A DNA stretch of 64,000 nucleotides from Tateyamaria omphalii (GTDB lineage Bacteria; Pseudomonadota; Alphaproteobacteria; Rhodobacterales; Rhodobacteraceae). Made by a program: the position numbers and the translations under genes. Positions within the stretch are counted from its first letter, which is position 1, and each line of letters opens with the position of its first letter. The stretch covers positions 248,001 to 312,000 of the forward strand of contig NZ_BMWT01000003.1 in assembly GCF_014651375.1 (NCBI RefSeq), given 5' to 3'. This document shows, piece after piece, positions 8,939-34,265 of the stretch. A model generated the notes under the pieces. The model was not told where the DNA came from, did not search any database, and saw nothing but the letters and a program-made list of their open reading frames with translations.

Positions 8939-8961
8939 GGCGGAGGACACCTCCGCCTTAC
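8939..8961 (-). repeat. REP-like GTAA hairpin element, copy A
   Basis: Read on the minus strand: GTAA, then an 8-bp stem GGCGGAGG/CCTCCGCC around TGT. It lies 10 bases after the folE2 stop and before the folE2 terminator. Confidence 0.85.
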
Positions 8962-8970
8962 GAAACATAC

Positions 8971-8998
8971 AGGCGCGCCGTTCTAGGCGCGCTTTTTT
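8971..8998 (+). terminator. Rho-independent terminator of folE2
   Basis: 7-bp GC stem GCGCGCC/GGCGCGC with a 6-nt loop followed by six T. Confidence 0.85.
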
Positions 8999-9004
8999 CA
9001 TTTC

Positions 9005-9027
9005 GGCGGGGGACACCCCCGCCTTAC
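9005..9027 (-). repeat. REP-like GTAA hairpin element, copy B
   Basis: Minus-strand GTAA head with stem GGCGGGGG/CCCCCGCC around TGT. It has the same orientation as copy A, with the folE2 terminator between them. Confidence 0.85.
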
Positions 9028-9144
9028 AGCCCACAATTGCGCAAGGCGGCCATGCAGTTTCGGCATTGGTGTTTTTGCCCTTGGGGGCCTATGTTCCAGT
9101 CAACGGGAGGACACAGTTTAACGCATGATATGCGAGGTTTCCCA

Positions 9145-9372
9145 ATGGCTTATGTCAGTCACCCCAACACATCTATCCTGAGTGCGATCCTTGATCGGAT
9201 TACCGACTTCTTAGTTGCCCTTGGCCACTCTGCCGCCATGTCGGCCGCAGCGGAAAGCCGTTTCAAGCGCATTGAAGCTCTGAATGCCAAAACGGACGAA
9301 GAGCTGGCCGCCATGAACTTGCGCCGCGAAGACATTGCGGCATACGTGTTCCGCGACCTGATGCACCTGTAA
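9145..9372 (+). CDS. DUF1127-type small protein
   Basis: 75 residues. The C-terminal part (SRFKRIEALNAKTDEELAAM then LRREDIAAYVFRDLM) resembles the DUF1127/YjiS motif in which a short helix is followed by 'L..R.DI'. Such small proteins in alphaproteobacteria are associated with stress responses and RNA handling; the function here is inferred only from family. The start at 9145 is chosen because the conserved region begins there; an ATG at 9130 is an alternative. Its own promoter is not obvious. Confidence 0.75.
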   Translation: MAYVSHPNTSILSAILDRITDFLVALGHSAAMSAAAESRFKRIEALNAKTDEELAAMNLRREDIAAYVFRDLMHL

Positions 9373-9476
9373 GCTTGAATTCGGCCTGGCATTGTGCCGG
9401 GTCGTTTGCAAGCTGGCCACGTGTTGCGGTGTCACCTGCTTGACACCGCCCGCGCGGCCCGCCAACGCTGAGCGCG

Positions 9477-31874: not shown

Positions 31875-31950
31875 GTTGGTTCCTCCGGGTTTGGTTGCTG
31901 AGGTGCGTTATACGCAGGCTGTTGCCTCTGGTCAGCGTTGTGTTTTGGGT

Positions 31951-31989
31951 TTATTTGTCAATCAGAGAGAAAAGTCATGCGTCAAATAA
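31951..31989. promoter_or_regulatory. Inverted repeat in the ilvC-lrp intergenic region
   Basis: TTATTTG (31951-31957) and its exact complement CAAATAA (31983-31989) have centres 32 bp apart, about three helical turns. The AT-rich arms and divergent Lrp genes make it a candidate Lrp/AsnC operator. No footprint evidence is available. Confidence 0.4.
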
Positions 31990-32007
31990 ACAGATTGTGG
32001 AAAAATC

Positions 32008-32463
32008 ATGCTTGATGATGCGGATCGTCGTATCCTGCGGCAATGGCAGTCGGACCCGACGCTTGCCCCTGCGGAATTGGCGGAACGGGCACGCGTCAGT
32101 CCAGGGCAACTCGCACGGCGGCAGGCCAAGCTGCGGGAGGCGGGGTTGGTCAAGTCGGTACAGGCCGTGATTGACTGGGCTGCACTGGGGTATGCTGTCG
32201 AGGTATCCCTGCGCATCACACTGGACAAGACACAGGCGCGCGCCTTTGACGATTTCATCGAAGCGGCACGGGAGGTGCCGGAAGTGATCGAGATCCAGAC
32301 CTTTCTGGGGCGCGTAGACGTGCGCCTGTCTGTCATTGCAAGGGATATGCCGCATTATCAGCATCTCTATCGCAGCCGTATCCTGACCTTGCCTCATATC
32401 GCGGATATCGAGGCGCTGATGCAGGTGGCAAGGATCAAGAGCGACGAGGCGCTGCCGCTGTGA
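32008..32463 (+). CDS. Lrp/AsnC-family regulator 1
   Basis: 151 residues: an N-terminal HTH (LDDADRRILRQWQSDPTLAP, AELAERARVSPGQLARRQAK) and a C-terminal RAM ligand domain (VEVSLRITLDK, VPEVIEIQTFLGRVDVRLSV, YRSRILTLPHIADIEALMQV). The start codon has no strong Shine-Dalgarno. The gene overlaps regulator 2 by four bases. Lrp proteins are oligomers that respond to amino acids; the divergent ilvC is the obvious candidate target. Confidence 0.92.
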   Translation: MLDDADRRILRQWQSDPTLAPAELAERARVSPGQLARRQAKLREAGLVKSVQAVIDWAALGYAVEVSLRITLDKTQARAFDDFIEAAREVPEVIEIQTFLGRVDVRLSVIARDMPHYQHLYRSRILTLPHIADIEALMQVARIKSDEALPL

Positions 32464-32918
32464 TCGACTTGGATGAGACAGACTTCGCCATTCTACGTTT
32501 GTTGGTCGAAGATGTAGGGCAGGGGGCAGGCGCCATCGGGCGGGCGTGCGGGTTGTCGCAGCCTGCCGCGTGGCGGCGCATCAAGCGGTTGCGCGCGGCG
32601 GGTGTGATCCGGGGGCAGCGGTTGAGCCTGGATGCGGAAAAACTGGGGTTCGGCGTGACCGTTTTTCTGGGTGTGAAACTGGCAACCAAGGGGCGGGTGA
32701 GCCTTGAGGATTTCGAGCGAGCTGTATCCGCCATTCCGGAAGTTCAAACCGTTGAACATGTGCTGGGGCTGTATGACTACCGCCTGCGGGTGGTGGCGCG
32801 TGACCTTCCCGATTTCGAGCGGGTCTTGCGGCGCCGGATCATGACGTTGCCCGGTGCGGGGGAGGTCGAGGCGAATGTGCTGCTGAGTGAAGAGCGCAGA
32901 CCGGGGCCCATCGGTTAA
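32460..32918 (+). CDS. Lrp/AsnC-family regulator 2
   Basis: 152 residues from a GTG overlapping the upstream stop (GTGA). HTH: LDETDFAILRLLVEDVGQGA and GLSQPAAWRRIKRLRAAGVI. RAM domain: FLGVKLATKGRVSLEDFERA, IPEVQTVEHVLGLYDYRLRV and RRIMTLPGAGEVEANVLL. It resembles regulator 1 in architecture but differs widely in sequence. The two are translationally coupled, which would favour stoichiometric synthesis and possibly hetero-oligomers. Confidence 0.92.
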   Translation: MIDLDETDFAILRLLVEDVGQGAGAIGRACGLSQPAAWRRIKRLRAAGVIRGQRLSLDAEKLGFGVTVFLGVKLATKGRVSLEDFERAVSAIPEVQTVEHVLGLYDYRLRVVARDLPDFERVLRRRIMTLPGAGEVEANVLLSEERRPGPIG

Positions 32919-33030
32919 AAACCGTTCCAATAGGCGACGCGCCGTGCCGCACTGCCGTGAATGTATACGGTGATAGGCTTTGTTCTGCAGGGTCCAAGCC
33001 GCTATGTCCTGCTGAAAGAGAAAGGACCGC

Positions 33031-34161
33031 ATGATGCCCGCATTGCTTGATACCGTTGATCCGCAAGGTCTTGAGGAGTTTTCCGTCGTTTTCACTGACC
33101 GCTCACTCAACCACATGAGTGTGGCGTTTCAAGGCGTGATGAACGACATCTCATCAATGCTGAAAGAGGTCTACGCCGCCGATGCGGTGGTGGTTGTGCC
33201 GGGTGGCGGGACCTTCGGGATGGAGGCGGTGGCGCGTCAGTTTGGACGCGGTGCGGATGTGCTGGTGGTGCGCAATGGCTGGTTTTCCTACCGCTGGAGC
33301 CAGATTTTCGAAACCGGAGGCCTGACCGCCAACACGACAGTGTTGAAAGCACGACAAACCGGAAACACGTCACCATCGCCCTTTACCCCGGCCCCGATCG
33401 ACGAAGTTGTGACCACCATTCGGGAGCAGAAGCCGGATGTGGTTTTTGCCCCGCATGTTGAGACAAGTGCAGGCGTGATTCTGCCCGACGACTATGTGGC
33501 CGCGATGGCGGCAGCTGCGCATGAGGTTGGTGCGTTGATGGTCCTCGACTGTATCGCGTCGGGCTGTGCTTGGGTGGATATGCGGGCACTGGGTGTCGAC
33601 GTGCTGATATCAGCGCCGCAAAAGGGGTGGAGTGCGTCGCCTTGTGCGGGCCTTGTGATGCTGTCTGACCGTGCGGTGGCGCGGATGGAAGAGACGACCT
33701 CTGACAGCTTTGCCATTGATCTCAAGAAGTGGCACCAGATCATGCAGGCCTATGAAAACGGGGGGCACGCCTATCACGCAACCATGCCCACAGATGCGCT
33801 GCGCGATTTCCGCGATACGATGGTTGAAACGCAAGCGTACGGCTTCGACAAGCTGAAGGACGCGCAGTGGGCCTTGGGCAATGCCGTGAGGGCTATGTTG
33901 GCCGAGAAGGGTGTGACGTCGGTCGCAGCGGATGGATTTGGTGCGCCGGGTGTGGTTGTGAGTTACACCACTGACCCGGATGTGCAGACTGGTAAACGAT
34001 TTGCGGCGCAGGGCATGCAGATCGCGGCAGGGGTGCCTTTGCAATGCGATGAACCCGCTGACTTCCGGACGTTCCGCATCGGGCTGTTTGGGTTGGACAA
34101 ACTCTATGATGTGGACGGCACGGTTACGCGGCTGCGGCGTGTCGTGGATCAGGTGTTGTAA
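33031..34161 (+). CDS. Class V aminotransferase (PLP-dependent; serine/alanine-glyoxylate type)
   Basis: 376 residues. Fold-type I class V features: VVVPGGGTFGMEAVARQF (cofactor phosphate region), VFAPHVETSAGVILPDDYV, the Asp strand LMVLDCIASGCAWVDM and the Schiff-base Lys in LISAPQKGWSASPCAGLVML. The family includes alanine-glyoxylate and serine-pyruvate aminotransferases; the substrate here is not resolvable. AAAGGA lies upstream of the ATG. Its TAA stop is part of REP-like element E. Confidence 0.85.
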   Translation: MMPALLDTVDPQGLEEFSVVFTDRSLNHMSVAFQGVMNDISSMLKEVYAADAVVVVPGGGTFGMEAVARQFGRGADVLVVRNGWFSYRWSQIFETGGLTANTTVLKARQTGNTSPSPFTPAPIDEVVTTIREQKPDVVFAPHVETSAGVILPDDYVAAMAAAAHEVGALMVLDCIASGCAWVDMRALGVDVLISAPQKGWSASPCAGLVMLSDRAVARMEETTSDSFAIDLKKWHQIMQAYENGGHAYHATMPTDALRDFRDTMVETQAYGFDKLKDAQWALGNAVRAMLAEKGVTSVAADGFGAPGVVVSYTTDPDVQTGKRFAAQGMQIAAGVPLQCDEPADFRTFRIGLFGLDKLYDVDGTVTRLRRVVDQVL

Positions 34162-34265
34162 GGCGGAGGTGCCCTCCGCCGGGCGCACGGCACGTGCGCC
34201 TTACTATGGTGCGGAAACGTAAGGCGCACGTGCCGTGCGCCCGGCGGACCATAGGTCCGCGTTAC
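34158..34265. repeat. Cluster of four REP-like GTAA hairpins (copies E-H)
   Basis: Four elements in alternating orientation fill the gap between convergent genes: E 34158-34180 (+; arms GGCGGAGG/CCTCCGCC), F 34182-34204 (-) and G 34219-34241 (+), identical to each other (arms GGCGCACG/CGTGCGCC), and H 34243-34265 (-; GTAAC head, arms GCGGACC/GGTCCGC). The TAA of E is the aminotransferase stop and the TAA of H is the stop of the UbiH-like gene. Confidence 0.9.

Follow-up and report, generated by a model that had tools for sequence, protein, structure and literature searches.

The window analysed here is a stretch of 64,000 nucleotides (nt) from Tateyamaria omphalii (contig NZ_BMWT01000003.1, positions 248,001 to 312,000), and it contains eight short hairpins with the unpaired tetranucleotide GTAA at their 5' foot. 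We describe these hairpins, their relatives in the 4.75-Mb genome that contains the window (G000) and the gene that they border there, which encodes a transposase-like protein of the RAYT family (tyrosine transposases associated with repetitive extragenic palindromes [REPs]). All eight were found where an earlier annotation of the window (the original prediction) had placed them. The first two lie on the reverse strand at the 3' end of folE2 (GTP cyclohydrolase, PF02649; 7762..8928, forward strand): GTAAGGCGGAGGTGTCCTCCGCC at 8939..8961, 10 nt behind the stop codon of folE2, and GTAAGGCGGGGGTGTCCCCCGCC at 9005..9027. Two more are on the forward strand, the 22-nt form GTAAGGCGCATCTTGATGCGCC at 12592..12613 and GTAAGGCGCACCTGTGGTGCGCC at 12652..12674; the TAA in the head of the former is the stop codon of an open reading frame (ORF) for a thiamine pyrophosphate (TPP)-dependent enzyme (PF02775/PF02776/PF00205; 10838..12595, forward strand, start uncertain). 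The remaining four stand between two convergent genes, one for a class-V aminotransferase (PF00266; 33031..34161, forward strand) and one for a flavin adenine dinucleotide (FAD)-binding protein (PF01494; 34262..35467, reverse strand). They are GTAAGGCGGAGGTGCCCTCCGCC at 34158..34180 (forward), whose head provides the aminotransferase stop codon; its inverted partner GTAAGGCGCACGTGCCGTGCGCC at 34182..34204 (reverse); the same GTAAGGCGCACGTGCCGTGCGCC at 34219..34241 (forward), with identical letters in the nearest relative (G011); and a hairpin with one mismatched basal pair at 34243..34265 (reverse), whose head TAA terminates the FAD-binding gene. The head TAA is thus a stop codon in three of the eight window elements. 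As had been claimed, the layout is a stem of 8 bp and a loop of 3 nt, except for 12592-12613, which has a loop of 2 nt and a total length of 22 nt, and 34243-34265, where the first pair is C/C and the stem is 7 bp.

A family of GTAA-headed hairpins

In G000, the pattern GTAAGGCG-N11-CGCC was found in 86 exact copies (the 22-nt form escapes this pattern), compared with 5 for the same pattern reversed. The genome-wide excess over chance on which the original prediction had made the family depend is therefore real. In a sample of 20 genomes of the genus, 13 contain 28 to 97 copies, the maximum being in G010, and the controls gave 0 to 6. G007 has 12 copies and the six others 0 to 6 (for example, 6 in G017, 4 in G013, 3 in G015 and 1 each in G008 and G009). 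A looser pattern with 3 mismatches was discarded, since the control gave more matches than the search.

Detailed scans of G000 covered 272 kb of stretches selected for holding elements, plus the window. One scan of the fetched stretches gave 116 GTAA-headed hairpins, some of which are one palindrome read twice; the other count gave 105 separate hairpins, which fall into 58 clusters, 24 of these with one hairpin only. Among the 79 hairpins of 23 nt, the variable arm is GAGG in 32, GACG in 14, CACG in 8, CAGG and GGGG in 5 each and CACC in 4, with eight other arms scarcer still, and the loop is TGT in 54. The original prediction had stated that the arms change together so that the fold is kept, and this was borne out: in 33 distinct 23-mers, hand-picked among the genome hits, a choice that favours hairpins, 98.1% of the cells in the variable part of the stem pair, and the arm covariation score is 0.449, compared with 0.119 in shuffled arms (0 of 500 as high) and no more than 0.130 in a slid control.

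A short hairpin with a constant unpaired tetranucleotide at its 5' foot and many copies in the genome is what characterizes a REP. The head GTAA does not fit the definition by GTAG or GT[AG]G, nor is it the CGTC tag. The GTAA hairpins are a REP-like family with the head GTAA in place of GTAG or GTGG. The original prediction did not know the variant as a described family, and no published description of GTAA-headed REPs, or of a conserved inactive RAYT, turned up in a literature search conducted largely without subscription papers.

The RAYT of G000 and two RAYT classes in the genus

A search of G000 with the Pfam model Y1_Tnp (PF01797) yielded no RAYT; the RAYT protein itself scores 13.4 bits with this model, the cut-off being 23. 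The notion of REPs without a transposase, taken from this result, was overturned by a protein query and by the NCBIfam model NF047646; used by itself, Y1_Tnp can miss a RAYT that is present. The query was a RAYT-like gene of G001 with a GTAA hairpin at its start, and it had matches in 19 of the 20 genus genomes. NF047646 likewise scored above its cut-off in 19 of 20; G005, where the best score was 23.5 bits, also has no element. In G000 the model found a single RAYT, at C3:544530-545108, which scores 150.8 bits (cut-off, 80) and is thereby a member of the RAYT family. Its protein is homologous to Escherichia coli TnpA_REP (PDB 4er8) over residues 3-161 of 192 (E 1e-28). This gene is bordered by the element of its own genome, so that the search for a RAYT flanked by the same hairpin, as proposed in the original prediction, was successful: an opposite-strand GTAA hairpin lies within the last codons and encodes the tail GRTTRAPY, the TAA that stops the gene belongs to the head of the following hairpin, and another inverted pair lies beyond it. 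GTAG-headed hairpins with related stems are also present in G000 (C3:120603, C3:120620, C4:115207, C8:102875 and C2:547338), although NF047646 yields no second RAYT there; three of them are the other face of a GTAA palindrome.

The RAYT gene tree splits into class A and class B with support of 100/99; the tree program gave a warning about long branches coming together at the E. coli row. Catalytic residues were compared via an alignment with 4er8 and are numbered as in E. coli TnpA_REP; broken, partial or fragmentary sequences of the class-A type (L160, L162, L188, L189, L192, L193 and L194) and the class-B-like L195 of G013 were excluded. The motif D-H-[LI]-H, Tyr115 and Asn119 are retained in all 10 class-A proteins, which come from 8 genomes. 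Class B, to which the RAYT of G000 belongs, comprises 17 proteins of 17 genomes with D-V-I-H or a similar motif, and in 17 of 17 the first HUH histidine is replaced, Tyr115 is changed to Met or Leu and Asn119 is changed to Ala. Not one of them, then, keeps any of these three parts of the RAYT catalytic site, and in G003 and G012 the second HUH histidine is also replaced, by Tyr. In TnpA_REP, N119 is described as essential in vivo (PMC6006769), and Y115F is used as a catalytic mutant (PMC8266576).

The class-B genes nevertheless look maintained. For the 14 closest class-B pairs listed, the ratio of nonsynonymous to synonymous substitution (dN/dS) ranges from 0.07 to 0.13. The median is 0.17 over 112 of 136 pairs (the remainder were saturated, and the pairs are not independent of each other). 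These values indicate that the class-B RAYT is under purifying selection. The longest class-B branches are those of G008 and G009, which have one element copy each. Both flanks of the G000 RAYT gene were matched at the same place in all 17 class-B loci, with the downstream match falling in a different part of the query stretch in G007 and G014. With one RAYT in G000 and the neighbourhood kept throughout, the gene has the low copy number and the vertical inheritance expected of a RAYT.

GTAA hairpins stand at 13 of the 17 class-B loci, the others being those of G007, G008, G009 and G017. A GTAA hairpin accompanies the class-B gene in all 13 element-rich genomes (at least 28 copies), compared with none of the four genomes that have an open class-B gene but no more than 12 copies (Fisher p 4e-4). 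Of the 13 class-A-type loci with a nearby hairpin, 12 have GTAG heads and one (L189) has GTGG; L164 also shows GTAA on the opposite face of a palindrome, and L175 has one GTAT. In the GTAG-type RAYT genes L161, L163, L164, L165 and L187, the gene's own TAG stop codon is the REP head, an arrangement that class B mirrors with TAA and GTAA. A silent stop-codon change in a GTAG-type RAYT could have founded the GTAA family.

Judged by one protein, the nearest named records are those of Tateyamaria, which belongs to the order Rhodobacterales and the family Roseobacteraceae. In a sample of the bacterial family (248 genomes of 247 genera), two members of this genus, G000 and G007, were the only genomes with elements above the control, and all others had no more than 4. 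A DNA motif for the class-B active site was found in 2 of the 248 genomes, again G000 and G007; this motif is narrow, and G006 and G018, which are class B by protein sequence, as well as other kinds of inactive RAYT would escape it. In this sample, the hairpin family is limited to one genus.

Conservation and possible gain and loss of sites

G011, the nearest relative of G000, has a class-B protein that is 92% identical, at a dS of 0.52. A scan of G011 gave 93 hairpins, which include some palindromes read twice, and 82 of these have a same-strand G000 hairpin no more than 60 bp from the orthologous position (corresponding to 81 different elements of G000, a few of them paired with a neighbour of the same cluster). 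Four are at places in G000 without an intact copy, and seven were unmappable because only the element loci of G000 had been fetched. The listed places C6:477741, C6:609922 and C7:9529 were excluded; C4:72681 was included but does not fold. Hence, most copies have stayed in place since G000 and G011 diverged. Within the window, 34243-34265 has an imperfect counterpart behind the hairpin in G011.

In 77 equal-length pairs with full flanks (5 were dropped), element identity is 0.968 and 42 pairs are identical, while the adjacent 10-nt flanks are identical at 0.77 and 0.80. In 61 pairs of 23-mers, changes were seen at 0 of 244 head positions and 14 of 976 stem positions, values that are biased toward identity because both copies had to pass the scan; the loop, which the scan does not constrain and which is therefore a fair internal control, changed in 5, 9 and 18 of the 61 pairs at its three bases. 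Ten stem pairs had changed: four changes are compensatory, four are to or from a wobble pair and two break the pair. Rare stem variants, such as GTAAGGCAGAGG and GTAAGGCGGGTTT, are identical at the same site in both species, which argues for inheritance rather than recent homogenisation.

These data bear on the idea that the RAYT died and that the elements are decaying remnants without a present function. The lost catalytic residues, the mostly frozen positions and the existence of decayed copies are what such fossils would show, but the class-B protein has been under purifying selection after the loss, heads and stems are kept far better than the flanks or the third loop base, compensatory changes occur at fixed sites, and the longest class-B branches belong to the two genomes with a single copy. 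We consider fossils an improbable explanation.

Among relatives, sites with and without an element were found. At the folE2 site (24 rows looked at, out of 80 loci and the window), the same 23 letters as in 8939-8961 are present in 6 rows (the window, L083, L085, L086, L098 and L100), the hairpin is by eye decayed in L084 and L087, and it is absent in 16, including L081, L082 and L105, which are named Tateyamaria. At the 9005-9027 site, the head is GTGA in L083 and the hairpin is decayed in L084, and the lone hairpin of L083 at the place of 12652-12674 has identical letters. The 34158 site was compared in 20 genomes. An intact hairpin is present at the stop codon in G000, G011 and G019, and an intact or nearly intact hairpin stands about 10 nt further on in G001, G002, G004 and G006; 13 genomes have neither insertion intact. 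Among these 13, the gap between the genes is 25 nt in G016 and 9 to 14 nt in G008, G010, G012 and G013. The second insertion is, by eye, present in decayed form in G017, remnants may be present in G007 and G018, and G003 has a different hairpin further downstream. Since such element-free sites exist, the fixed positions across distant relatives that would have spoken against the original prediction are not what was observed. On the gene tree, two changes are needed for the two insertions, or three if G017 joins the second, with weak support (62/0 for the first group) and a partial gene in G019; the decayed copy in G017 weakens the case for gains. It thus seems that new sites arose within the genus once the class-B catalytic residues, lost in common, were gone; loss or decay, or action of class A in trans, are possible alternative accounts.

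The REP system may still be mobile: class A could move GTAA elements in trans, or class B could cut with unusual residues and form with its hairpins an ordinary, slow REPtron. The two distinct insertion positions at the 34158 site (G000/G011/G019 versus G001/G002/G004/G006), with 13 of 20 genomes having neither intact, and the two or three changes on the tree are in favour of this, as is the fact that 8 of 20 genomes possess class A with its residues intact. However, G010 and G000, with 97 and 86 copies, have only one RAYT each, of class B, whereas G013 and G015 have an intact class A yet 4 and 3 copies, 12 of the 13 class-A-type loci with a hairpin carry GTAG, and 82 of 93 sites are common to the nearest relative. 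Moreover, the gene-tree supports are weak, and decay or loss accounts for part of the pattern at the 34158 site. We regard a still-mobile system as unlikely, though a good deal less so than fossils. Regarding the original prediction, its REP-like layout and the kinship with REP/RAYT systems were confirmed, but mobilisation by a RAYT is not supported as it was stated, because the only RAYT found in G000 is without the first HUH histidine and the tyrosine nucleophile, and because most copies have kept their places since G000 and its nearest relative diverged.

Hairpins at gene ends and comparison with known systems

A convergent ORF ends no more than 12 nt from the 3' foot in 40 of 107 hairpins (44 of 1,500 random points from the same sequences) and at exactly 7 nt in 16 of 107 (3 of 1,500), ORFs being open frames of at least 120 codons and not annotated genes. 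A consensus, CCGCNNGTCA, behind many elements was considered as part of a longer element, but the next 10 nt show no raised identity; it apparently represents the convergent gene's stop codon, which stands at a preferred distance. An Rfam search of the hairpins gave nothing above the gathering score; its sub-threshold microRNA matches probably come from a long inverted repeat. A role as intrinsic terminators was rejected, T-rich tracts (5 of 8) directly after the hairpin being few: 7 of 107 cases for the head strand and 6 of 107 for the opposite strand.

The hairpins could also be plain RNA structures at gene ends, terminators or protectors of the mRNA end, multiplied and maintained by selection on the RNA only and linked to the RAYT by history alone. 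They are strong hairpins near stop codons (z of -3.3 to -4.8 in three single elements), as such structures would be. However, the scarcity of T-rich tracts speaks against terminators, a terminator has no need of an invariant unpaired GTAA, and in the family sample the elements are confined to the genus that has class B. We deem this explanation very improbable, even more so than that of fossils.

With a degree of confidence only a little better than even, we read the hairpins as a GTAA-headed REP-like family that is the partner of a class-B RAYT without nuclease chemistry but kept by selection. The residue losses and the conservation of the RAYT suggest that a selfish REP/RAYT system was disarmed and kept for another job, with the hairpins as probable, putative binding sites at gene ends. 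Cleavage may have been given up on both sides, by the protein residues and by the fourth base of the head: in Stenotrophomonas TnpA_REP, single head mutations are reported to leave binding intact, and changes at position 3 or 4 abolish cleavage (PMC8266576), and here the fourth base is A and the catalytic residues are lost. The class-B protein would still bind the hairpin, as single-stranded DNA or RNA. Whether bound or free, the hairpins would have their effect at the 3' ends of genes; in this position, often some 7 nt behind a stop codon, a stem could delay ribosomes during termination or protect the end of the mRNA. The hairpins in the last codons and the stop codon of the RAYT gene would allow self-regulation. 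The elements would have spread earlier, and perhaps occasionally since. By analogy with Stenotrophomonas, the simplest account would be that the system ceased to cut and continued to bind. More tentatively, and with somewhat less than even confidence, we propose a regulon derived from a transposable-element system, in which the cleavage-less RAYT would be a sequence- and shape-specific binder of about 100 GTAA hairpins at gene ends, its own stop codon included.

Several observations weigh against the idea of a disarmed but retained system. The two different insertions at one site inside the genus mean that mobility may have outlasted the loss of catalysis, and the class-A RAYTs of 8 of the 20 genomes, active by sequence, could move GTAA elements in trans. 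The truncated class-A-type gene of G001 (L160) also carries a GTAA hairpin. G017 has an ordinary class-B protein yet only 6 copies, and G007 has 12. The use of the head TAA as the stop codon of a long ORF, considered as a general feature, was not clearly above control (20 of 107 hairpins versus 54 of 439 other GTAAs, p 0.086), and the upward bias in head and stem identity noted above belongs here too. Finally, head changes in E. coli TnpA_REP are reported to abolish both binding and cleavage, and a fourth-base change in Marinomonas Mb redirects cleavage to another dinucleotide (both PMC8266576).

The window has other features besides the hairpins. Two more dispersed repeats of about 30 to 90 bases, at 20284-20349 and 20402-20461, have many matches in G011, G016 and G019. 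The former resembles by eye an "AAAATAC..GGGG..GGGGCAGAGCCCC" hairpin that stands behind the TPP gene in several relatives without a GTAA hairpin there, and the latter reads GTGTACAGGGGGTGTACGG. A short stretch, GGCCATGCAG..., lies at about 9055-9085 between folE2 and trkH; an Rfam search of it gave no match above threshold, and the loose form G[CT]ATGC[AG], a short motif counted without a control, was seen no more than 400 nt from the folE2 end in 21 of 24 rows. A SAM_alpha riboswitch (RF00521) is located at 6337-6414, ahead of a gene for a Cys/Met pyridoxal phosphate-dependent enzyme.

In form, the GTAA hairpins are like REP-Sm of Stenotrophomonas maltophilia, the partner of a group-3 RAYT, with 23 nt, an unpaired 4-nt head, a perfect palindrome of 8 bp and a 3-nt loop (PMC8266576). 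As in REP/REPIN systems with a group-3 RAYT, the RAYT gene is bordered by hairpins that occur in many copies, also as inverted pairs; unlike in those systems, the head is GTAA and the RAYT is without the first HUH histidine, Tyr115 and Asn119. Thus, a GTAG head need not belong to the definition of REPs. The homologous E. coli TnpA_REP has H-U-H, Y115 and N119, and the REPs of E. coli are described as having a bulge and a GTAG head (PMC8266576). CGTC-tagged REPs of Alphaproteobacteria are also short tagged palindromes but differ in their tag and have no known dedicated transposase (PMC3733652). A GTAA head can supply the stop codon of the flanking ORF, as the TAG of GTAG REPs often does (PMC3733652). 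The class-A RAYTs of the same genus share the NF047646 model with class B, and at 5 loci the gene ends in the head of its own hairpin (TAG of GTAG), but class A has intact catalytic residues in 10 of 10 proteins and different stems and heads.

RAYTs are described as single-copy, vertically inherited genes (PMC8049555), and class B resembles them in this. RAYTs are said there to have very low rates of REP replication and an exact function that is unknown, and their long retention by bacteria is an open question that this genus bears on: it offers a natural separation of function, in which the known chemistry is gone and the gene and hairpins still look selected, so that the host role of the RAYT would be accessible without confusion by cleavage. 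In 2018, a survey in which RAYT subclasses were defined retained proteins only if they had both the HuH and Y motifs, and it regarded the others as probably nonfunctional (PMC6006769). The proteins it dropped are, like class B, without the core motifs; unlike them, class B is conserved and syntenic and has a kept element family. Since the survey kept only RAYTs with intact motifs, such systems may have been overlooked.

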